Assembly: GCF_002379365.1 (NCBI RefSeq) | Contig: NZ_JQIU01000008.1 | Coordinates: 690,540 to 744,046 of the forward strand | DNA: 53,507 nucleotides | Reading direction: 5' to 3' | Origin: Brachyspira sp. G79 | Lineage (GTDB): Bacteria > Spirochaetota > Brachyspiria > Brachyspirales > Brachyspiraceae | Shown here: positions 1,441 through 43,611 of the stretch, piece after piece | Numbering within the stretch: position 1 is the first letter of the stretch | Layout: the number at the start of each line of letters is the position of its first letter | Notes under the pieces: model-generated | Database searches by the model: none | What the model was told of the DNA's origin: nothing | The model's input: the letters and a program-made list of their open reading frames with translations, nothing else | Position numbers and translations under genes: made by a program

Positions 1441-2607
1441 TTAGCTGTTTAACTCTAAATGTTTAATAGCCCATTCGCTCATAAGCACAGAAGGCTGATA
1501 CAATTTTGATTCATCTATTTCAAATTTGCTGTTATGATGAGGTATATTTTTTTCTGTGGCTGTAGAAAATAATATAAAAGCTCCGTTAATTTTATCTAAA
1601 TAATCAGCAAAATCCTCACCTGCCATGGAAAGTTCATAATAAGAAGCCTTTTTAAAGTTTAAGCTGCTACACACTTCATCAAGCTCTTTATATATGTCAG
1701 CATTATTGATAACAGGAGCACCACGCCTTTTTATTATAACTTGAGCTTCTGCCCTATTGGCACTTGCAATAGAATTAACTACTTCTTTTATTCTCTCAGT
1801 TATAAAAACTCTAGTATCTTCACTAAATGTTCTAAAAGTTCCTTCGATATTAACTTCAGATGGTATTATATTATACTGACTTCCTGCATGAACCATACAT
1901 ATAGAAATTATTATTGGATCTGTTGCTGGTATTTCTCTGTTTTTAATATTATATATTGCCTGTATTATCTGGCTTGCTGTTAATATAGGGTCAACAGAAA
2001 GATGAGGATAAGCACCATGTGAACCTTTCCCTATAACCTTTATAAATATTCTATCATTAGAAGCCATTAAAGCACCCTCTTTTAATACAAACTCTCCACT
2101 TGGAACATTAGCAGCCAAAGTTCCTATATGAGTACCAACTATTGCATTAACTCCGTCAAGCAAACCAGAATTAAGCATATTATGTGCTCCTACTGCCAAT
2201 TCTTCCGCTGCCTGAAAAACTAACCTTACAGTGCCTTTTATTCTTGATTTATTTTCAGCCAAATAATAAGCAGCCCCAAGCAGACATGCAGTATGGGCAT
2301 CATGTCCGCATGCATGCATATTACCGTTTTTAGAAGCATAATCAAATTCTGTTTCCTCTTCTATAGGCAAAGCATCCATATCCGCTCTAATAGCCGCTAT
2401 ATTTTTTATGCTTTTATTATCATCATTATTTCCTATATCACATACAAGTCCGCTGTCGATTGAAGATTCTTTATAAGAAAGTCCTAATTCTTTTAATTTA
2501 TTTATAACATAGTTTTTTGTCTCAGGAAGTTCTGTACCCACTTCTGGTATTTTATGCAAATCTCTTCTCATAGAAATAATAATATCATTTAGTTTATTGT
2601 AATCCAT
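1441..2607 (-). CDS. M20 family amidohydrolase (N-acyl amino acid / hippurate hydrolase type)
   Basis: A 388-residue zinc-dependent amidohydrolase of the M20D group, which cleaves N-acyl or amide-conjugated amino acids in the cytoplasm. Visible family marks are RADMDALPI (about 74-82), the metal-binding HACGHD (98-103), an EE pair near residue 135, and AGEDFADY in the C-terminal third. A lid domain lies between, around residues 185-290. Length is normal for the family and there is no signal peptide. It stands alone, with its own promoter at 2653-2681. Substrate cannot be read from sequence; hippurate hydrolase, IAA-amino acid hydrolase and N-acetyl-L,L-diaminopimelate deacetylase are all members of this group. 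Confidence 0.88.
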   Translation of the reverse strand: MDYNKLNDIIISMRRDLHKIPEVGTELPETKNYVINKLKELGLSYKESSIDSGLVCDIGNNDDNKSIKNIAAIRADMDALPIEEETEFDYASKNGNMHACGHDAHTACLLGAAYYLAENKSRIKGTVRLVFQAAEELAVGAHNMLNSGLLDGVNAIVGTHIGTLAANVPSGEFVLKEGALMASNDRIFIKVIGKGSHGAYPHLSVDPILTASQIIQAIYNIKNREIPATDPIIISICMVHAGSQYNIIPSEVNIEGTFRTFSEDTRVFITERIKEVVNSIASANRAEAQVIIKRRGAPVINNADIYKELDEVCSSLNFKKASYYELSMAGEDFADYLDKINGAFILFSTATEKNIPHHNSKFEIDESKLYQPSVLMSEWAIKHLELNS

Positions 2608-2652
2608 TTTTTATTAATATCCATTATTCATATTTTTTGTTTTAATATATTT

Positions 2653-2681
2653 AGTATATTAAGTAATCATCATTAAGTCAA
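2653..2681 (-). promoter_or_regulatory. Predicted sigma-70-type promoter for the M20 amidohydrolase
   Basis: Reading the minus strand, TTGACT (2681-2676) and TATACT (2658-2653) are separated by 17 bases, a near-consensus housekeeping promoter. It lies about 45 bases upstream of the ATG at 2607. No operator-like dyad is obvious. Confidence 0.6.
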
Positions 2682-2797
2682 GAATTATAACTTAATATTA
2701 CAATTTTGTTTAATAATGATATAAAATTAAAATATAGTTGTTTGAAAACTAGTTACTATAATTAATTATAATTTTTTACTTACAAAATAAATTTATT

Positions 2798-3092
2798 AAA
2801 CTTGTTCCAAAAGTATTTAATAAAAATTTTAGGATTTTATTTTATAATATAAATGTTTTAAATATTGTATAAAGTATATATTTAAGTTATATAAATACAG
2901 TTTTTTCATATAATATGTACCACGCCATGCCTCTTAGGTAGCAAGCGAATTTTTTTTGGGTGTTACGAGGTATGCAAAGCGGCATGACAGTATACTTCTC
3001 AGAGCAAAGACAGCAAATATTTTAAATTAAAAAAATTAATTTTGATAAACTATATTTGTTTAGGTATATACTAAAAATTTTTAAGTTTGTCA
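2798..3092 (-). repeat. Copy 1 of a dispersed intergenic repeat family (inverse orientation)
   Basis: Begins with AAACTTGTTCCAAAAGTATT, which resembles the terminal repeat of the better preserved copy at 33970-34201 (AGACTTGTTTCAAAACTA). It continues with an AAATGTTTTAAATATTGTAT stretch matching the reverse complement of the ACAACATGTAAAACATTTT stretch of that copy. A GC-richer core follows (about 2918-3000) containing CGGCATGACAGTAT, matching CGGCACGACTGTAT on the reverse strand of the 34-kb copy. Ends are approximate because similarity fades. Confidence 0.5.
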
Positions 3093-14070: not shown

Positions 14071-14344
14071 AAAATTAATTTAAATATTTTATTAAAAACA
14101 AACTAGAAGTGATTATTAAATTTGCACTTGTAGTTTTTTAATTTTGTTTATTGAAAAAATAGATTTTTGCGACGGGTAAGCAGATAAAATAGATTAATAA
14201 AAAACACTAAATCCAAGTATTTTTGCAACTTTTTTTGAAGAAAAAAATTGATGAAAGATTTAATATTACAAATACTCAAATATTTATAATATATACCTAA
14301 AAAATATAGTTTTTCAAAAATAAAATTATATTTTTTTTATTTCT

Positions 14345-14480
14345 GGAACTTTGCTGTGAAGTACACAATTGTACACACTCCCAGTTCTTTTGTGACGCTG
14401 TACCGCGACTAAAACATAAGTATAATCATACATTTAAAACTTGTATAATTAATAATACTTTATCCTATAATAAGTTCATT
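14345..14480 (+). repeat. Copy 2 of the dispersed intergenic repeat family (diverged)
   Basis: The GC-richer core ATTGTACACACTCCCAGTTC followed by TTTTGTGACGCTGTACC resembles GGTTGTACGCCCAAACTTC followed by TTTTGCTGTCCGCTCTGC at about 42662-42710. A following CATTTAAAACTTGTATAATT stretch parallels the AT-rich flank of other copies. Ends cannot be fixed. Confidence 0.35.
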
Positions 14481-14555
14481 TATAAATAAGTAAAATTTGA
14501 CAAAATATAATTGTTTAGGTATAAATATAAGATTATACAGTTTACTCAAAAAATT

Positions 14556-32980: not shown

Positions 32981-33868
32981 TTATCTTCTTCTCTTAACAA
33001 AAAACTTCATAACTTCAGTAACATAATCACTAGAAGTATCTAAAACTATTTTTTCTATAGAATTTTTTTTAAGGAAATTAAGCCTATCTTCCATAATATT
33101 ATTTTGTTCATTAAAATACTCTTCTCTTATACGTTTATTAGACATGTCAAAGTAAACATAATCTTCATTTTCTAAATCGGATAATACCAAAGTGCCTCCC
33201 AAATTAGGAAGATTATATTCCAAATCATCATTAACCAAGCATACAATAAAATCATGGCGTTTTCTTGTAATATCTATTTCTTTTTTAGGCAAATCAGCAC
33301 AAGCATCGGTTATTAAAAATGTTATGCTGTCTCTTTTTTGTATTCGGTTAAAATATTCTAAAGCATTTGCTATATTTGTATTTGCACTTTTAGGTTCAAA
33401 CTCTATAAGCTCTCTTATTATTCTAAGTACATGATTTCTGCCTTTGTTTAAAGGAATAAATTTTTCTACTGTATCGGTAAATATTAAAAGCCCAACTTTA
33501 TCATTATTTTTTAAAGCTGAAAAACTAAGCAAAGCACTAAGCTCTACAATCAAATTATGCTTTGTTTTTGTAAACCCAAAATCAGTGGAAGCAGAAAAAT
33601 CAGCAAGTATTATAACGCTTAATTCCCTCTCTTCTCTGAAACGTTTAATAAAAGGTTCATTATATCTTGCACTTACCTTCCAATCCATAGCCCTAACATC
33701 ATCACCAACAGTATATTTTCTCACTTCATCAAACTCTATACCCTGTCCCTTAAAAGCGGAGTGATACTGTCCTGCAAAATATGAGTTAACTATTTTTGAA
33801 GTTTTTATCTCTATTTGTCTTACCGATTTTAATAATTCGGAAGTTGTCATATTATTATTTGTAAACAT
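32981..33868 (-). CDS. DUF58 domain protein
   Basis: 295 residues. Contains the DUF58 core GQGIEFDEVRKYTVGDD followed by VRAMDWKVSARYNEPFIKRF (about 40-78), then a von Willebrand A-like region with the MIDAS-type DxSxS motif (LADFSASTDFG) and ITDACADLP. DUF58 proteins normally act with a MoxR AAA+ ATPase and VWA/BatA-type membrane proteins in envelope homeostasis; in this window none is adjacent. Its only same-strand neighbour is the MATE gene. No membrane helix, so it is cytoplasmic or peripheral. Confidence 0.88.
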   Translation of the reverse strand: MFTNNNMTTSELLKSVRQIEIKTSKIVNSYFAGQYHSAFKGQGIEFDEVRKYTVGDDVRAMDWKVSARYNEPFIKRFREERELSVIILADFSASTDFGFTKTKHNLIVELSALLSFSALKNNDKVGLLIFTDTVEKFIPLNKGRNHVLRIIRELIEFEPKSANTNIANALEYFNRIQKRDSITFLITDACADLPKKEIDITRKRHDFIVCLVNDDLEYNLPNLGGTLVLSDLENEDYVYFDMSNKRIREEYFNEQNNIMEDRLNFLKKNSIEKIVLDTSSDYVTEVMKFFVKRRR

Positions 33869-33969
33869 ATGTAACCTATTTTTTAAATATTTATTATGGA
33901 TTAATATTATATTATCAGAGAATAAAAAACAATACTATTATAAGGCATTATTATTTTAATAAAAATAGC

Positions 33970-34201
33970 AGACTTGTTGCAAAACTAATTTTATTTATTA
34001 TAAAGGGAACAACCTCCGCAAAACATACAGTCGTGCCGCACCATCTTCTTTTGAAATCCGCTATGCGTGCCGTAGTCAAGCGAAAGACTGCATGTTTATA
34101 TATTAAAATGATAGTGTATACAACATGTAAAACATTTTGTCTGTAATTTTAAAATAAATAACTTTATACTCAATCTTGTCAAGTAGTTTTGAAACAAGTC
34201 T
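33970..34201 (+). repeat. Copy 3 of dispersed repeat family; MITE-like element with terminal inverted repeats
   Basis: The left end AGACTTGTTGCAAAACTA (33970-33987) and the reverse complement of the right end AGACTTGTTTCAAAACTA (34184-34201) agree at 17 of 18 bases. Inside is a second inverted pair, AAACATACAGTC (34021-34032) against GACTGCATGTTT (34086-34097), enclosing the GC-richer core. The element is 232 bases, has no open frame, and no clear target duplication is visible. Confidence 0.7.
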
Positions 34202-34216
34202 AATCTTTATATATGT

Positions 34217-34289: not shown

Positions 34290-35306
34290 TTATTGTTTTG
34301 TAGGCTGTGAATTATTATTTTTGCTCATTGAATCCATACCAGATATACTGTAACGCATTTCAGTATCAGCCATAATATTTTTCATATTATAATAATCAAG
34401 CACCCCAATATTTCCTTTTTTAAGTGCCTCAGCAATAGCAAGAGGAAGCTGAGATTCTGCCTCTACAACTTTAGCTTTCATCTCTTCAACTTGGGCACGC
34501 ATTTCCTGTTCACGTGCTATAGCCATAACTCTTCTCTCTTCAGCTTTAGCCTGAGCAATCTTTTTGTCAGCCTCAGCTTGGTCAATCTGTAAGAAAGCAC
34601 CAATATTGCTTCCAACATCAACATCAGCAATATCAATAGAAAGTATCTCAAAAGCAGTGCCAGAATCAAGACCTTTAGCAAGTACAACCTGAGAAATTCT
34701 ATCTGGATTTTCTAAAACTTCCTTGTGAGAAGAAGAACTACCTATAGTGGTAACAATACCCTCACCTACTCTAGCAATAATAGTTTCCTCTCCAGCTCCG
34801 CCAACAAGACGGTTAATATTTGTTCTAACAGTAACCCTAGCAGTAGCCTTTACTTGTATACCATCTTTAGCAACAGCAGCAATTAAAGGAGTAGCTATAA
34901 CTCTAGGCGAAACAGAAGTTCTTATAGCATCAACTAAATCTCTTCCAGCCAAATCTATAGCAGCAGCACGCTCAAAACTTAAATCCAAAGAAGCCTTATC
35001 CGCAGCAATCAAAGCGTCAGCAACAGCAGTAGGATTTCCCCCCGCTAAATAATGTGCCTCAAGCTCATTTGTACCTATTTTTAAACCTGCTTTCCATAGT
35101 TTTATTTGATTTAATACTATAAGCGAAGGATTAACTCTTCTAAGACGCATAGTAATTAATGTTATCATATTTATTCTTACACCAGAAAACAAAGCTGTAA
35201 TCCAAAGTCCCATAGGGAAAAAATGTAAGAAAATAAATAAAAGTATCAGTATTACAACAATACCAACAAACATAGGAATAACTGGAATATACCCAAAATC
35301 AAACAT
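34290..35306 (-). CDS. floA: Flotillin-like protein FloA
   Basis: 338 residues. A hydrophobic N-terminal hairpin (about 8-45), then an SPFH domain ([41 protein letters not shown]), then an Ala/Glu-rich coiled coil ([20 protein letters not shown]). These are the marks of the YqfA/FloA flotillins that organise membrane microdomains. The ATG at 35306 has AGGAGG seven bases upstream; a TTG two codons earlier would abut the ribosome-binding site. It follows pyrH after 23 bases. Length equals B. subtilis FloA (331). Confidence 0.92.
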
Positions 35307-35329
35307 ATACAAACCTCCTAAAAATATTA

Positions 35330-36102: not shown

Positions 36103-36156
36103 GATTAAATAATTTATATAATATAAAATATTTAAAATATATCTGATAATAGCCAT

Positions 36157-36356
36157 ATTTCAAAACCAATTTTATTTATAATTGTGTATGCTAAATTTGC
36201 AACTGTAGTAATCCTATTATTCTAAAGTATTGAAAAAAGTAGAAAAAACTGCATTTTGCCATATTGAATACGTATTTTATACAACATATAAAACATAATC
36301 TTTATAAGTTAAAATCAAATAATTTTATATATAATCTGTAAAGTACTTTTGAAAAA
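36157..36356 (+). repeat. Copy 4 of the dispersed repeat family (diverged)
   Basis: Left end ATTTCAAAACCAATTTTATT parallels TTGCAAAACTAATTTTATT of the 34-kb copy. The right part ACAACATATAAAACATAATC and then TAATCTGTAAAGTACTTTTG parallels ACAACATGTAAAACATTTTG and CAATCTTGTCAAGTAGTTTTG. The core has lost most of its GC-rich sequence. Confidence 0.5.
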
Positions 36357-36421
36357 TATATAATATAAGTTCTATAATTAAATATTTATTTTCAAATTTA
36401 TAAAAAAATAATAATATTTTC

Positions 36422-36449
36422 TTGACTGTATTTTTTTTCATTGTATCAT
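36422..36449 (+). promoter_or_regulatory. Predicted promoter of rnc-rpe
   Basis: TTGACT (36422-36427) and TATCAT (36444-36449), spacer 16, about 30 bases before the rnc ATG. Confidence 0.5.
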
Positions 36450-36478
36450 AATGGCTATATTGTTAGGCAGAATGTATT

Positions 36479-37219
36479 ATGAACATTATAAATATAGAAG
36501 AAATTTTAAATAATTGTCAAACGGCTATAAAATATGAGTTTAGAAATAAGTCTTATCTTTTAGAGGCTATTACTCATAGAACTTATGCCAATGAATCAAA
36601 AAATAAAATGAAATATAATCAAAGGCTTGAGTTTTTGGGAGACTCTGTTCTTTCTCTTATTATATCAGATTATTTGTTTAAAAAATACAATACAAGTAAA
36701 GAGGGCTTGCTTTCCAAAGTAAAATCATCTTTGGTTTCTCAAAAAAGTTTAGCTGATATTTCAAAAGAATTAAAACTTGGAGATTTTCTTCTTTTAGGAC
36801 ATGGAGAAGAGGTTTCAGGAGGACGCTATAGAGATAATATGCTTGAAGATTTATTTGAGGCAATAGTAGGTGCTATATATTTGGATTCTGGTATTAATAA
36901 TGCTGCTAAATTTGTTATGGCGGCATATAAAAATAGACTTACTAACCTTGATATAGAAAATTTTGATAAAGACTATAAGACTATATTTCAAGAACTTATA
37001 CAAAAAAAACATAAAACAAGCCCAGTATATAAATCGTATGAATATCATGATGAAAATAATCATGAGATGTTTAAAGCAGAAGTTTATGTCAATGATAAAA
37101 ACTTTTCTTCTGGAATAGGAAAAAGCAAAAAAGAAGCGGAAACTGAAGCTGCTAAAAAAGCATTAGAAAATATAGAAAGAGTAAGCAGAACAATAAAGAA
37201 AAATAAACAAAATAAATAA
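36479..37219 (+). CDS. rnc: Ribonuclease III
   Basis: 246 residues, double-strand-specific endoribonuclease that processes rRNA and mRNA. The catalytic RNase III signature NQRLEFLGDSVLS (about 47-59) and the second acidic helix NMLEDLFEAIVGAIYLD (about 120-136) are present. The C-terminal double-stranded-RNA-binding domain occupies about 163-235, ending GIGKSKKEAETEAAKKAL. A short Lys/Asn tail follows. No strong Shine-Dalgarno sequence. It is followed by rpe after 50 bases. Confidence 0.96.
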   Translation: MNIINIEEILNNCQTAIKYEFRNKSYLLEAITHRTYANESKNKMKYNQRLEFLGDSVLSLIISDYLFKKYNTSKEGLLSKVKSSLVSQKSLADISKELKLGDFLLLGHGEEVSGGRYRDNMLEDLFEAIVGAIYLDSGINNAAKFVMAAYKNRLTNLDIENFDKDYKTIFQELIQKKHKTSPVYKSYEYHDENNHEMFKAEVYVNDKNFSSGIGKSKKEAETEAAKKALENIERVSRTIKKNKQNK

Positions 37220-37269
37220 TAATATAATTTTAATAAATTCTTAATAAAAATACAATATAAGGAAAATAT

Positions 37270-37920
37270 ATGAATAAAATTATGATAGCACCTTCAATAT
37301 TAACTTCTTCATTTTTAAATTTGGAAAGTGTGATAAAAGAACTAGAAGAAGTTGAAAGCGATTATCTTCATTTGGATATAATGGACGGAGTATTTGTTCC
37401 TCAAATTACTTTTGGTGCTAAAATAGTTTCTGATATAAAAAAATCAAGCAGTATTCCGCTTGACGTTCATCTTATGATAGTAAATCCAGAAAAACATATT
37501 GATGATTTTGCCAAAGCTGGTGCTGATATTATAAGTGTGCATTATGAAGGAAATATTCATATACATAAAATTATTCATCAAATAAAATCGTATAATATAA
37601 AAGCAGGTATTGTACTTAATCCGCATACTAGAGTTGATGTTATAGAGCCTATTATAGAGGATATTGATTATGTTCTTATTATGAGCGTAAATCCGGGATT
37701 TGGGGGACAGAAGTTTATAGAATCATCTGTAAAAAAAATAAGAGAAGCTAAAAAATTGATTAGTAATAGAGATATAATTCTTGCAGTAGACGGAGGAGTT
37801 AATCTTAATACATGTAATATAGTAATAGAAGCAGGAGCAAATTTTCTTGTGGCAGGAAGTGCAATAATTGACAGCGATAATAAAAAAGATACTATTAATA
37901 AACTTAGGGGAAATAAATAA
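37270..37920 (+). CDS. rpe: Ribulose-phosphate 3-epimerase
   Basis: 216 residues, TIM-barrel enzyme interconverting D-ribulose 5-phosphate and D-xylulose 5-phosphate in the pentose phosphate pathway. Motifs: IAPSILTSSF at the N-terminus, LHLDIMDGVFVPQITFG (metal His and catalytic Asp), DVHLMIVNP, VLIMSVNPGFGGQKFI, and AVDGGVN with the second catalytic Asp, and AGSAI for phosphate binding. Length is typical. It shares its intermediate with the product of the arabinose pathway encoded at 14556-23690. Confidence 0.97.
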   Translation: MNKIMIAPSILTSSFLNLESVIKELEEVESDYLHLDIMDGVFVPQITFGAKIVSDIKKSSSIPLDVHLMIVNPEKHIDDFAKAGADIISVHYEGNIHIHKIIHQIKSYNIKAGIVLNPHTRVDVIEPIIEDIDYVLIMSVNPGFGGQKFIESSVKKIREAKKLISNRDIILAVDGGVNLNTCNIVIEAGANFLVAGSAIIDSDNKKDTINKLRGNK

Positions 37921-38034
37921 TTTAAATAATTATATTCAAAAATTATTTTTATAAAAATATTTGTATTTAATATATTATTATAATATTAAATTTTATAATA
38001 TTCTATAAAAATATTATTTTTTTCACATTATAAC

Positions 38035-38062
38035 TTGACATCATATTTTTATATAGTATAAT
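38035..38062 (+). promoter_or_regulatory. Strong promoter of lexA
   Basis: Consensus TTGACA (38035-38040) and TATAAT (38057-38062), spacer 16. It is one of the best promoters in the window, about 38 bases before the ATG. Confidence 0.75.
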
Positions 38063-38071
38063 AACAAATAC

Positions 38072-38079
38072 TACATGTA
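38072..38079 (+). promoter_or_regulatory. Candidate LexA operator in the lexA leader
   Basis: The perfect palindrome TACATGTA lies about ten bases past the -10 box, where an autorepressor would act. Half-site similarity to known SOS boxes is too small to be sure. Confidence 0.3.
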
Positions 38080-38098
38080 AATATAAAGAGGTATAAAT

Positions 38099-38725
38099 AT
38101 GACTGAATTAACTGACAAACAAAGAGATATTTTTAATTTTTTGCAAAGATTTACCAATGAAAATGGATATCCGCCAACAGTAAAAGAAATTATGGTTCAT
38201 TTTAACTTCGCTTCACCAACAGCAGTAACGACACATCTTACAGCCTTAGAAAAAAAGGGATACGTAAAAAAAACTGGTAAAAGAGCAAGAGGAAGTGTAC
38301 CTATAGATACATCAGAAAAAGGCAATCATAATATGGTAAGAATACCGCTTTTATCAAATGAAGTTAAAGCAGGTCTTTTAATGGACGTAGCTGATGAAAC
38401 TGTAGAAGAAACATACTCTCTGCCAAAATCAATAGCTCAAGATGAAGGTAATTTCCTTATGAAAGTTATGGGTGATTCTATGATAAATGCTCACATAAAA
38501 GAAGGAGATATGGTATTAGTACACCCAACTAATCAGGCTGATAACGGAGATATAGTAGTAGCAAAAATTGATGATAATGGAAATGAAGAGATAACAATCA
38601 AAAGATTTTTCAGAGAAAAAGACCATATAAAACTTATGCCAGAAAATAAGAATTATCAGCCTATAATAAAAGAAAGTATTTCTTTAGTAGGAAAAGTTGT
38701 AGGACTTATAAGGTTAAAAGTATGA
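38099..38725 (+). CDS. lexA: LexA repressor
   Basis: 208 residues, repressor of the SOS response that self-cleaves on RecA filaments. Winged helix domain in residues 1-70 (LTDKQRDIFNFLQRFTNENG; ASPTAVTTHLTALEKKGYV). Cleavage bond Ala91-Gly92 (EVKAGLLM), catalytic Ser127 (MGDSMIN) and Lys168 (ITIKRFF) are all present, so autocleavage should be functional. Expressed alone from a strong promoter and ended by a strong bidirectional terminator. Ribosome-binding site AGAGG is eight bases upstream. Confidence 0.96.
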   Translation: MTELTDKQRDIFNFLQRFTNENGYPPTVKEIMVHFNFASPTAVTTHLTALEKKGYVKKTGKRARGSVPIDTSEKGNHNMVRIPLLSNEVKAGLLMDVADETVEETYSLPKSIAQDEGNFLMKVMGDSMINAHIKEGDMVLVHPTNQADNGDIVVAKIDDNGNEEITIKRFFREKDHIKLMPENKNYQPIIKESISLVGKVVGLIRLKV

Positions 38726-38739
38726 TTACATATATTGTG

Positions 38740-38771
38740 AAAAAAGAGGGATTTATAAATCCCTCTTTTTA
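38740..38771. terminator. Bidirectional terminator between lexA and yajQ
   Basis: AAAAAGAGGGATTTAT pairs perfectly with ATAAATCCCTCTTTTT, with A and T runs on each side, serving lexA (+) and the minus-strand yajQ gene ending at 38800. Confidence 0.9.
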
Positions 38772-38799
38772 TTGCATAATAATTATATAAAAAAATTAA

Positions 38800-39297
38800 T
38801 TATCTATAATTTGTAAACTGCAAAGGTATAGGATAATCTTTACCTTTAAGCATTGTTATTACAGACTGCAAATCATCTTTTTTAGCCCCAGACACCCTTA
38901 CCTGCTCATCTTGTATACTCGCTTGCACTTTTAATTTCATATCTTTAATATCTTTTACTATCTGTTTAGCCAAATCTTTGTCTATACCATGCACTATTTC
39001 ATTAATCTCTCTAACTGCATCACCTGCTGCTTTTTCTTTTTTCTTTTCTCTAAGGCATTTTTGATTTAAGCCCCTTTTAATAAATTTCTGAAATAGAATA
39101 TCTTTTACCTGATTAAGTACAAAATCTGCAGGGGCAACTATAGTAATAGTTTTTTCTCCTTTATTGAGTTCAATCTGTATATTTTGTCCCTTAAAATCAA
39201 ATCTATTATCTATTTCCTTAGTAGCAACATTAACGCAGTCATCAATAACCTGCATATCAACCTCAGAAACTATATCAAAACTTGGATCTTTTGCCAT
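38800..39297 (-). CDS. yajQ: YajQ-family nucleotide-binding protein
   Basis: 165 residues, YajQ/DUF520 family. N-terminal [20 protein letters not shown], then [28 protein letters not shown] and C-terminal [26 protein letters not shown]-type ending (quoted in part: [10 protein letters not shown]) are diagnostic. Some family members bind cyclic di-GMP or nucleic acid; the function here is not established. It follows glgA on the same strand after 39 bases. Confidence 0.95.
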
Positions 39298-39336
39298 AAT
39301 TAACTCCTTTGTAAATTTGTAAATTTAATTTTTCTA

Positions 39337-40842
39337 TTATTTATTACTTAACAATTTTTTGTAAAGTTTAGTATATTCCAAAGCACATTTATGAAGCGAA
39401 TAATCTTTACTCATAGCATTAGCCACTAATTTATCCCATATATCTTTTTTATTATAATATAAATCAAAAGCTAAATCCATAGTGTGAACAAAACTTTTAA
39501 TACAATATTCATTAAATACAAACCCAGTTGCTTTATTAGCAGTTTTTATCCCATTATAATTTATAACAGTATCTTTAAGCCCGCCTACCGAATGCACTAT
39601 AGGAATACTTCCATATTTCATACTGTATATCTGATTAAGTCCGCAAGGCTCAAATCTGCTTGGCATCAAATACATATCGCTTCCTGCTGTAAGTCTATGT
39701 GCTAATGATTCATCAAAAGTAAATAATACCTTTATATTTTTTGCTCTGACAGCTCTATCAATAAAATCTTCTTCAAAATCTTTAAAATAATTATTCTTAC
39801 TAAAAAGAAAAATAAAATTAGCATTATAAGTAGAAATCTCAAAAAAAGACTGGTATATCAAATCAAGCCCTTTCTGCGGGTCAAACCTAGAAATCATAGT
39901 TACAAGAGGACAAGATTTATTAACAAAACCAAACTCTTTATATAATGAATTTCTTATAATTTTTTTCTTTGAAAAAGTATTTATATCATAATTATTTTTT
40001 ATATATTTGTCTGTTTTAGGGTCCCAATCTTTATCATGACCACCGTTAAGTATACCGTATAATTTTGAAGATAAATCAGAAAGTAAATTATTAAGACCGC
40101 ATCCAAACTCTTCTCCCTGTATCTCTTTAGCATATGATGGGCTTACAGTTGTAACGATATCAGATAGTATAATTCCAGACTTTATAAAACTAACATTGCC
40201 GTAAAACTCCAATCTGCTATGTACAAAAAACTTCCAAGAAACATTTAATAGACCGTAAATATCAACAGAAAAATTACCTTGATATGCCAAATTATGTATA
40301 GTAAAAATTACTTTTAATTTTTTTAATGCTTCCTCTCCATTAAATACTTCTTTTATATATAAAGCTATCAAAGCAGTCTGCCAATCATGTATATGTACTA
40401 TATCTAGTTTAAAATTTTCTTTTTCATATAAATATATTATAAGTTTAACAGCCGCTTTTGAAAACAATATAAATCTGCTTGCATTATCATTATAATCAAT
40501 ACCATTTTCTGAATAAATACCATTTCTTTTAAATGAATTATCTTCTTTTATGAAATAAACATTTATATCATCATTATTAGGATGCTTAATTCTAACAATA
40601 TCAACTTTGATTATATTTTTACCATGTTCTATTTCTAATGTAGTTAATATATCTTTTTTGTTTATGAGTTTATAATTTTGTTTATATAATGGTATAATCA
40701 AGGAAACATTAATATTTAAAGTCTTTCCAGTATTCATAGTATTTATAGAAGAAAGCTCCAAAGGCAGACTTCCTGCAATATCACCTAGCCCTCCCGTTTT
40801 AGAAAATGGATAGGCTTCGCTAGATACCATAAATATATTCAT
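39337..40842 (-). CDS. glgA: Glycogen synthase
   Basis: 501 residues, GT5 glycosyltransferase that extends alpha-1,4-glucan from ADP-glucose. The substrate-binding KTGGLGDIAGSLP (about 15-27) is at the N-terminus. Other marks are VHIHDWQTALIALY, FTIHNLAYQG, TVSPSYAKEI, and the C-terminal donor-binding MPSRFEPCGLNQIYSMKYG with GGLKDTV. Full-length. No other glycogen genes are near, so storage metabolism is scattered. The ATG at 40842 faces murE across a divergent region. Confidence 0.95.
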   Translation of the reverse strand: MNIFMVSSEAYPFSKTGGLGDIAGSLPLELSSINTMNTGKTLNINVSLIIPLYKQNYKLINKKDILTTLEIEHGKNIIKVDIVRIKHPNNDDINVYFIKEDNSFKRNGIYSENGIDYNDNASRFILFSKAAVKLIIYLYEKENFKLDIVHIHDWQTALIALYIKEVFNGEEALKKLKVIFTIHNLAYQGNFSVDIYGLLNVSWKFFVHSRLEFYGNVSFIKSGIILSDIVTTVSPSYAKEIQGEEFGCGLNNLLSDLSSKLYGILNGGHDKDWDPKTDKYIKNNYDINTFSKKKIIRNSLYKEFGFVNKSCPLVTMISRFDPQKGLDLIYQSFFEISTYNANFIFLFSKNNYFKDFEEDFIDRAVRAKNIKVLFTFDESLAHRLTAGSDMYLMPSRFEPCGLNQIYSMKYGSIPIVHSVGGLKDTVINYNGIKTANKATGFVFNEYCIKSFVHTMDLAFDLYYNKKDIWDKLVANAMSKDYSLHKCALEYTKLYKKLLSNK

Positions 40843-40975
40843 AATATAATTCCATATAATAAAAAAGTTTTCACTATAATATAGTTATATATCTTTTACG
40901 CCTAAAAATCAAGCTATTTATTTATATAATATAGTACAAAAAAAGAATATATTTTTTACTATAAAATTTAAAAAA

Positions 40976-41005
40976 TTGTTTTATTTTCTATATATGAAAT
41001 ATAAT
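40976..41005 (+). promoter_or_regulatory. Predicted promoter of murE
   Basis: TTGTTT (40976-40981) and TATAAT (41000-41005), spacer 18, about 22 bases before the ATG at 41028. Confidence 0.45.
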
Positions 41006-41027
41006 AAATAAAAAATGGGACTAAATT

Positions 41028-42554
41028 ATGAAACTTTTTAAAGAACTTATCAAAGGATATAAAGTATCAAAAGAAAAGCAATTAACAAAAGAATGTTTAA
41101 ATACTGAAGTAAAAGGCATAGCCTATAATTCCAAATTAATAAAGAAAAACTATATTTTTGCAGCAATAAAGGGATTAAAAGATGACGGACATAAGTATAT
41201 AGAAAGTGCTATTAATAATAAATCAAGTATAATAATATATGATAATACAGCTGATAAAAACTTTATAAAAGAATTAGAAAATAAATACTCACATGTATAT
41301 TTTATAGCAGTAAAAAATCCTAGAGAATGTCTAGCTTATATTTCAGCAAAATTTTTTAATGAGCCTACTAAAAAGATTAATACTATAGCAATTACTGGAA
41401 CTAACGGCAAAACAACTACAACATATTTATTAAAATCTGTACTTGAAGCCAATAAAAATAAAACAGCTTTAATAGGTACAATTAAAAATATGATAGGAAA
41501 AACAGAAATAAAAACTAATCTCACAACCCCAGAATCTGCTGACTTGGAAAACATATTTGATAAGGCATTAAAAAAAGAAGTGTCTCATATAGTGATGGAA
41601 GCATCATCTCAGGCACTAGCTATGGATAGATGCGATTATTTAAATTATGATACAGCTATTTTTACTAATATCACAGAAGACCATCTTGATTATCATGGAG
41701 ATATGAAAAATTATCTTAAAGCAAAATTAAAATTATTCTCACTTCTAAAAGAAAGCAGCAAAAAGAAAAAATTAGCAATAGTAAATATAGACACTGATAA
41801 TTTTAAGCAAATATCAAATTATATAAAAAAACTCGGTATAAAAATGGTCACTTACGGACTTAATGAAAAAGCTGATTATTACGGAAAAATAATTTCTCTT
41901 AATTCAAAAAATACAGAATATGAGTTTTATGCTAAGGGCAAATTTATATCAAAAGTAAAATTATCAATGCTTGGAAGATTTAATATTTTAAACTCTTTAT
42001 CTGTATTAGCTTATGTATGTGAATATAAATTAGACATAGAAAAATCAATTAAAGCTATGAGAAAGGTTCAGGTGGCAGGAAGATTTGAAATAGTAACAAA
42101 AGAAAAACACACTTTCATTGCAGCAGTTGATTACTCTCATACACCAGACAGTTTAGAAAATATATTAAGAGAGGCTAGAAAATTAAATCCAAACAGAGTA
42201 ATAGTTGTATTCGGATGCGGAGGAGACAGAGACAGAAAAAAACGTCCTATAATGGCTGGCATTGCAGAAAAATATGCTGATATTTCTATACTTACTACAG
42301 ACAATCAAAGAACAGAAGACATTAATCAGATAATGAATGATATTGAAAAAGGATTTAAAAATAAAGATTATAAAAAAATTATAGACAGAAAAGATGCAAT
42401 ATTTGAAGCTATAAAAGAAGCAAAAGAAAATGATATAGTTATAATAGCAGGCAAAGGTCATGAAACTTACCAAATATTTCCAGATAAAACAATACATTTT
42501 GATGACAGAGAAATAGTAAGAGAAGCGTTAAAAGAATTTTTTAAAGATATATAA
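41028..42554 (+). CDS. murE: UDP-N-acetylmuramoyl-L-alanyl-D-glutamate--diamino acid ligase
   Basis: 508 residues, adds the third amino acid of the peptidoglycan stem peptide. ATP loop AITGTNGKTTT (121-131), central-domain motifs TTPESADLENIF, MEASSQALAMDRCD, FTNITEDHLDYHG, and C-terminal GCGGDRDRKKRP and AGKGHETYQ. The residue-selecting motif reads DNQR (425-428); enzymes for meso-diaminopimelate have DNPR and lysine enzymes have DDPN or similar. This suggests a diaminopimelate- or related diamino-acid-adding enzyme. It is a single gene away from any mur cluster. Start ATG at 41028. Confidence 0.93.
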   Translation: MKLFKELIKGYKVSKEKQLTKECLNTEVKGIAYNSKLIKKNYIFAAIKGLKDDGHKYIESAINNKSSIIIYDNTADKNFIKELENKYSHVYFIAVKNPRECLAYISAKFFNEPTKKINTIAITGTNGKTTTTYLLKSVLEANKNKTALIGTIKNMIGKTEIKTNLTTPESADLENIFDKALKKEVSHIVMEASSQALAMDRCDYLNYDTAIFTNITEDHLDYHGDMKNYLKAKLKLFSLLKESSKKKKLAIVNIDTDNFKQISNYIKKLGIKMVTYGLNEKADYYGKIISLNSKNTEYEFYAKGKFISKVKLSMLGRFNILNSLSVLAYVCEYKLDIEKSIKAMRKVQVAGRFEIVTKEKHTFIAAVDYSHTPDSLENILREARKLNPNRVIVVFGCGGDRDRKKRPIMAGIAEKYADISILTTDNQRTEDINQIMNDIEKGFKNKDYKKIIDRKDAIFEAIKEAKENDIVIIAGKGHETYQIFPDKTIHFDDREIVREALKEFFKDI

Positions 42555-42584
42555 AAATAAGTGAACTGTATAATTTTAGAATAT

Positions 42585-42916
42585 ATACTGAAAATTTTTA
42601 AGTTTATCAAAAATGTATTTTAAAATCTTATTTATTTGTGTGGACTATACCTGCAAAGCATGCGGTTGTACGCCCAAACTTCTTTTGCTGTCCGCTCTGC
42701 TGCATGGAAAAGAACATACTGGTGATGCCACATAAAAGTACGTCTCACCCTGTGCGACTTCAGCAGATGAGAAGCAGGCACTGTTTGATGATACAAAGTA
42801 CAACATATTTATATACTAAAATAACAAGTTATATAATATGTAAAACATTATTTTCATAATTGATAAATTACTAAATTTTAATATATAATCTTATCAAGCA
42901 CTTTTGAAACAAATCT
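42585..42916 (+). repeat. Copy 5 of the dispersed repeat family (long core)
   Basis: The right end AAGCACTTTTGAAACAAATC matches AAGTAGTTTTGAAACAAGTC of the 34-kb copy. The preceding ATATGTAAAACATTATTTTC matches ACATGTAAAACATTTTGTC. The core has ACTTCTTTTGCTGTCCGCT against ATCTTCTTTTGAAATCCGCT. The core is about 70 bases longer than in copy 3 (additional sequence about 42715-42790). The left end contains TACTGAAAATTTTTAAGTTT, also present near 3070. Confidence 0.55.
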
Positions 42917-42995
42917 ATTATATAAATAAATATTTACATACTGTGTAAATACTTAAGATATAAAAAATGAAGCTTTTTTATGAATATGTATTCAT

Positions 42996-43097
42996 ATGGA
43001 TCAACACCTATCATACACCCGAGGTAAAAAACGGTATCCAACAAAGTACACAGGAGAATACTATTTATATTATTCAAATGGCAAAATCAAATTATAA
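42996..43097 (+). pseudogene. Possible C-terminal scrap of a YwqK/MORN-like repeat protein
   Basis: A 33-codon frame ends GKKRYPTKYTGEYYLYYSNG and KIKL. The YTGEYYxYYSNGKIK wording resembles the repeat of YwqK-type and MORN-like proteins common in Brachyspira. It has no ribosome-binding site, so it is probably the remains of a lost gene. Weak evidence because it is short. Confidence 0.3.
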
Positions 43098-43116
43098 AAT
43101 AAAAAATACCATAAAA

Positions 43117-43611
43117 TTACATACCAGCAAATTCTTTTAATTTTTCATGACTAAGCCTATAGGAAATCCAACCTTTCATTTCTATAGCATTGAGTGATAA
43201 ATAAAAATCAATACTAGACTTATTCCAATCTAAACACTGCCAATCAAGCCTTTCGCATCCTCTTTCAACAGCAATTTTAGCAATTTCTTTTAAAAGCTTT
43301 TTACCATATCCAAGCCTCCTGTAATTAGGAGTTATGTATAAATCTTCTAAATATATTCCAGCTTTTCCCAAAAAAGTAGAAAAATTATGAAAAAATAATG
43401 CATACCCTATTTCAGTATTATTTTCTAATGCTATCAATACTTCACATTTATTTTTTTCAAATACCCATTCTCTTAATATATCCTCAGTTGCAGTAACTTC
43501 ATTTTCTAATTTTTCGTATGCCGCAAGCTCTCTTATAAACTTTAATATAGTAGGTATATCATCAGGAGATGCAAACCTTACAGCAAATTTATTATTTATT
43601 TTATCACTCAT
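43117..43611 (-). CDS. GNAT-family N-acetyltransferase
   Basis: 164 residues, single GNAT domain that transfers an acetyl group from acetyl-CoA. Motifs: FAVRFASPDDIPTILKFIRE at the N-terminus, IGYALFFHNFSTF, LEDLYITPNYRRLGYGKKLL (the RRxGxG acetyl-CoA loop, about 95-102) and WQCLDWNKSSIDFY. The pattern is close to diamine/spermidine acetyltransferases of the SAT family (VLEDLYVxPxYRGxGIG, CxRxxWxVLDWN). Polyamines or thialysine are plausible substrates. It follows the M29 aminopeptidase gene after 12 bases. Confidence 0.87.
   Translation of the reverse strand: MSDKINNKFAVRFASPDDIPTILKFIRELAAYEKLENEVTATEDILREWVFEKNKCEVLIALENNTEIGYALFFHNFSTFLGKAGIYLEDLYITPNYRRLGYGKKLLKEIAKIAVERGCERLDWQCLDWNKSSIDFYLSLNAIEMKGWISYRLSHEKLKEFAGM

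Follow-up and report, generated by a model that had tools for sequence, protein, structure and literature searches.

An IS5-derived MITE family of Brachyspira and a moved 79-kb chromosomal segment bounded by two of its copies

In Brachyspira sp. G79, a short intergenic element separates a DUF58/VWA protein gene from the flotillin-like gene floA, two genes that a flank search finds as neighbours only in this genome. The locus poses two questions: what the element is, and how these genes came to lie on either side of it. The window analysed here is a stretch of 53,507 nucleotides from this genome (G000, 3.29 Mb), and the features of the element and its surroundings are collected in Table 1. The original prediction had described a 232-base element with inverted ends matching at 17 of 18 positions, a nested inverted pair around a GC-richer core and no coding capacity, which it read as either a non-autonomous transposable element or a large structured RNA of no recognised family. 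Its guess that the genus is Brachyspira fits the relatives identified here. Its structural description is borne out: in inverted orientation, the terminal repeats AGACTTGTTGCAAAACTA and TAGTTTTGAAACAAGTCT agree at 17 of 18 positions, the nested pair borders the core, and no open reading frame of 60 or more amino acids overlaps the element. Matches to the end sequence with up to three mismatches number six in the window, where 0.39 are expected.

Table 1. Features of the element and its surroundings, in window coordinates
Feature	Position	Strand	Remarks
MITE_w, MITE copy	33970..34201	.	232 bp, without coding capacity
Terminal inverted repeat, L-type end	33970..33987	+	AGACTTGTTGCAAAACTA; subterminal AATTTTATTTA
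Terminal inverted repeat, R-type end	34184..34201	-	TAGTTTTGAAACAAGTCT
Subterminal ACTTGACAA-type motif of R end	34175..34183	-	also present in the B. pilosicoli IS, at its left end
Nested inverted pair, left arm AAACATACAGTC	34021..34032	+	borders GC-richer core
Nested inverted pair, right arm GACTGCATGTTT	34086..34097	+	opens 120-bp R half common to many copies
AAT flanking trinucleotide, DUF58 side	33964..33966	+	partner AAT now beside ankyrin gene, G000:C8 ~374717
Extra AGC, small insertion	33967..33969	+	between left AAT and terminal repeat
AAT flanking trinucleotide, floA side	34202..34204	+	equals AAT at G000:C8:645283-645285, across the moved segment
DUF58/VWA protein gene	32981..33868	-	last gene within the moved segment; named by Pfam
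floA flotillin-like gene	34290..35312	-	outside the moved segment; named by Pfam
Degenerate second copy of the studied MITE family	42804..42916	.	R half and R end

The end sequence recurs throughout the genome. With at most two mismatches it gives 98 matches (50 + 48), against 0 + 2 for the reversed control, and a BLAST search with the window element returns about 50 matches. Pairing the ends in the fetched loci yields ~35 elements of about 160-360 bp, mostly 190-320 bp, in this genome, and as many in the relatives. The two ends can be told apart, the R end continuing into ACTTGACAA and the L end into AATTTTATT or a similar sequence. The same trinucleotide stands on both sides in 57 of the 69 distinct elements from this genome and its relatives (AAT in 34, ATT in 21 and ATA in 2), compared with a mean of 30 and a maximum of 43 matching elements in 2000 shuffles of the flank pairing; trinucleotides displaced by a few bases match in four elements. 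With one mismatch allowed, 22 of 25 Brachyspira genomes contain the ends (none to 193 matches per genome), the 16 genomes tested from the order and phylum outside the genus have none, and a search of phages and plasmids with a MITE copy gave no match. The family is confined to the genus Brachyspira.

A genus-wide search for DDE_Tnp_1 domains was used to look for an autonomous partner and returned two loci in which a transposase frame stops near the studied terminal repeat. In B. pilosicoli PC5538III-hc (G041), the frame ends ~10 bp inside a terminal repeat that reads ...GACTTTTGAAACAAGTCT|AAT. The product matches Pfam DDE_Tnp_1 (PF01609) above the cut-off (E 1.3e-19) and NCBIfam transpos_IS5_4 (NF033581) with E 1e-27; the recovered sequence comprises just the C-terminal half, and for this reason the NF033581 match stays under the cut-off set for the full length. 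A further 11 right ends in this assembly, identical over 128 bp, start at contig breaks, with AAT or ATT as the next three bases in every case except one, and thirteen or so left ends (AGACTTGTTTCAAAAGTACTTGACAA...), each reaching 246 bp from a contig break and including the start of the reading frame, are nearly all preceded by AAT or ATT. The IS ends at contig breaks thus have AAT or ATT beside AGACTTGTTTCAAAA in nearly all cases, which is the look of a recent multicopy IS in a short-read assembly. Decayed copies of the IS are present in genomes G023 and G020. No complete autonomous IS was recovered, as the G041 assembly breaks and the other copies are decayed, so that neither the length of the IS nor its full pair of terminal repeats is read from a single piece.

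The R ends of the MITEs correspond to the left end of this IS over ~26 bp, ACTTGACAA included, and the L ends resemble its right end. The first 15 bases of both tips and the preference for AWT are also alike, whereas the IS encodes a transposase and the MITE resembles it over no more than about 25-45 bp at the termini, with an unrelated interior. The window element is thus short and non-coding, has terminal inverted repeats, dispersed copies and target duplications, and shares its ends with an autonomous element: it is a MITE, a non-autonomous IS5-family derivative that keeps two IS ends around a hairpin-rich non-coding core. Other transposases found in the genus were rejected as partners, namely those of G021 (loci L132, L134 and L135), which are without the studied ends, and a PF01609 match in G024 (L130), which has no matching ends, lies among IS110-like, GC-richer genes and is taken as unrelated or as contamination. 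In B. pilosicoli PC5538III-hc (L131), IS3-type (rve) transposase genes at 466-1392 and 2059-3009 flank the broken IS5-type transposase, which the upstream one appears to have cut.

From the shared ends and the target preference we infer that an IS5-type transposase mobilised the MITEs in trans, by binding the ends common to both and moving them by cut-and-paste into AWT sites of AT-rich intergenic DNA. A profile search of the window's genome at E<=1 found neither PF01609 nor PF13359, and a search with the G041 transposase found nothing there either, so the MITEs of this genome are orphans unless some strain carries the IS; the transposase was probably lost from this lineage at a later time. 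The G041 transposase was likewise searched for in viral contigs and not found.

The second question is answered by gene order. The window copy forms the right edge of a ~79-kb segment (G000:C8:645286-724740) that is bounded by two inverted MITE copies and has moved relative to the two nearest relatives, G017 and G018, with which it was compared. G018 is the nearest by floA identity (96%) and has the same arrangement as G017. In both relatives a zinc-finger-like gene, X, adjoins floA, and an ankyrin-repeat gene, Y, precedes DUF58; in G000, X (C8:644874-645234) and Y (C8:374358-374720) lie far apart, and both adjoin further copies of the studied MITE. Save for a 45-kb island, G000 C8:645540-724506 is collinear with G017 C1:263313-297222, the collinear parts in G000 being 645540-668695 and 714366-724506. 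The block lies in G017 between Z1 (259863) and Y (297229), and the sequences flanking it there correspond in G000 to those up to 374712 and those from 375122 onward. In G000, Z1 and Y are joined via a MITE (MITE3) at this donor site, and the block is found between X (645256) and floA (724731), which are adjacent in G017, 116 bp apart. As a point against the explanation given below, G017 has a 3.4-kb stretch with a MurF-like gene between Z1 and ftsK that the donor site of G000 lacks (ftsK, Z1 and the MurF-like gene are named from their translations alone). The 45-kb island (G000:C8 ~668700-714400, window 1 to ~23830) is absent from G017 and partly shared with G018.

The junctions then reveal the order of events. 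On the left, X runs as ...TTATAAT directly into MITE6 (645286-645534), whose R end is outermost; on the right, the R end of the window MITE at 34201 is followed by AATCTTTATATA...floA. When the X and floA flanks are joined with a single AAT, the result is the X-floA sequence that G017 and G018 have without interruption, and when the DUF58 and Y flanks are joined with one AAT, the DUF58-Y sequence of G017 results. These single-AAT joins indicate that the window MITE first entered between DUF58 and Y, where AAT was duplicated, and that the AAT on the floA side derives from a second event, by which the 79-kb block came to lie between X and floA together with MITE6 and the window MITE. The two AATs of the window copy therefore stem from two different insertions, and this copy alone is no proof of duplication. 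Its reading as a clean simple insertion with an AAT on each side was rejected, given that its two flanks are not neighbours in the relatives. A decayed target duplication with flanks AGC and AAT was also rejected, since the relatives show AAT plus an AGC insertion; the AGC beside the left terminal repeat hides the AAT, and the flanks consequently mimic a missing duplication. With precise empty sites reconstructed in the relatives, the checks that the original prediction proposed all come out in its favour, the others being further genomic copies with matching ends, target duplications (3-bp AAT or ATT, rarely ATA) and a transposase-bearing element with the same ends.

The segment lies between two copies and went in as one unit with duplication of its target, and it has the anatomy of a composite transposon: the copies are inverted with their R ends outward, an AAT stands on each outer side and the target in the relatives holds one AAT. 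The AAT match carries limited weight alone, since AT-rich DNA is full of AWT triplets. The window MITE and MITE6 may have acted together as the ends of such a transposon, after which the donor site would have been closed by recombination between MITEs, leaving MITE3 as a chimeric copy. The R half of MITE3 is identical to that of the window copy at 116 of 120 positions (96.7%) and the L half is not shared, which indicates that recombination acted at the donor site. The composite-transposon step is not the only way to such an outcome, as segments can also be shifted by homologous recombination among MITEs. The segment might accordingly have been carried by successive homologous recombinations between copies that served as passive repeats, a course for which the chimeric MITE3 provides an actual instance of MITE-MITE exchange and the ~35 dispersed copies ample substrate. 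However, X and floA are adjacent around one AAT in G017 and G018, and here they touch the R-type ends of two different MITEs; as homologous exchange leaves each flank with its former end, and a MITE has a single R end, the crossover would need to lie inside the 18-bp terminal repeats, and recombination as the sole agent is considered rather unlikely. As judged from these sequence comparisons, composite transposition is probably the better account of the two, by a modest preference. An IS5-derived MITE with shared ends, together with a moved MITE-bounded segment, is with high confidence the best explanation overall.

The RNA reading of the original prediction, by which the element would be a structured RNA gene or cis-regulatory RNA repeated by coincidence, must be weighed against the hairpins of the core. 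In many copies a hairpin of the form GGGG..CCCC is accompanied by another stem, CTTCTTTTG..CAAAGAAG, with a closing pair that is either C-G (18 copies) or G-C (9 copies). The folds of three intact copies are far better than those of shuffled sequences (z -6.8 to -7.4). Other places in the genome have the same core between different ends, which would suit an RNA. On the other side, the core of the window copy is degraded and its fold is weak (z -2.4 with flanks), an Rfam search for a described RNA family gave no match, the copies occupy unrelated sites with target duplications, the hairpins form part of a mobile unit, and the terminal repeats alone explain part of the fold. This reading is very improbable: although copies carry conserved hairpins, a structured-RNA gene is not supported as the primary identity of the window element, and of the two forms first proposed the transposable element is the one upheld, by its dispersed copies, duplications, empty sites and transposase partner. 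A chance inverted repeat, for which the AT-rich background might speak, is refuted by copy number (end matches across the genome number 98 and those of the reversed control 2, with an expectation of 0.39 in the window at three mismatches) and is to be dismissed as practically impossible.

A second MITE-like family, with ends TATATACCTAAACAA...TTTGACAAA and the same GC-rich hairpin core, is represented in the window at 14290-14525 and at further loci of the genome (L284, L286, L288, L289, L293, L295 and L296). The element at window 2798-3070 looks hybrid, having one AGACTTGTT-family end and one TATATACCTAAACAA-family end with a GC-richer core between them. The shared core and the hybrid-like element hint at an exchange of ends between families. 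It is tentatively suggested that Brachyspira may possess a modular MITE system, in which a hairpin core is set between at least two unrelated sets of ends, ends are exchanged by recombination and pairs of copies move very large segments (here 79 kb), with no matching transposase in the genome today.

An IS5-type MITE is an ordinary, known kind of element. The ISL2-like MITEs of the IS5 family are characterised by an ANT target duplication (ISfinder groups), and the 3-bp AWT duplication observed here fits the ANT pattern of the ISL2 group, as judged on the duplication alone. The Brachyspira element is like these MITEs in being short and non-coding, in its IS5-family terminal repeats and 3-bp AWT duplication and in its presumed mobilisation in trans; it differs in its end sequence, in its confinement to one genus and in a core that also occurs between unrelated ends. 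The family itself is apparently undescribed, in keeping with the original prediction: none of the papers searched describes MITEs proper to Brachyspira or connects the genus with IS5. Segments bounded by two MITEs, with a target duplication and a transposase supplied in trans, are comparable to those of Acinetobacter, where 439-bp MITEs surround class 1 integrons (PMC3934969), and to the TIME-COMPs, which are MITE-bounded composites from Tn3 (PMC13367494). Those structures carry resistance genes and belong to families other than IS5, whereas the Brachyspira structure consists of 79 kb of ordinary chromosome, including the 45-kb island, between IS5-type MITEs.

Genome rearrangement in B. pilosicoli has been tied to conventional mobile genes in a comparison (PMC3532143). 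The MITE family has no genes and is therefore invisible to gene-based annotation. It is present in high copy number, varies between species from near absence to ~190 end matches, and here stands at the exact breakpoints of a large move, making it a concrete candidate cause, to be tested, of the strong rearrangement in Brachyspira genomes as well as a set of markers for strain typing. The window provides an unusually clear case of a large, MITE-bounded chromosomal segment that has moved.

The surroundings of floA differ among the genomes in other ways. Its 3' neighbour varies by species group, being X, the gene found in G017 after the MurF-like one, or yet another gene (loci L255 and L257 in G008 and G012, and L254 and L256 in G003 and G024), and the site is therefore a recurrent rearrangement point. 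Beyond floA-pyrH, a ~7-kb segment (window ~36141-43185, G000:C8 726680-733724) is absent at that place in G017, and part of it is found in contig C130:28000-31110 of G018. The degenerate MITE copy of Table 1 is located near the right edge of this segment.
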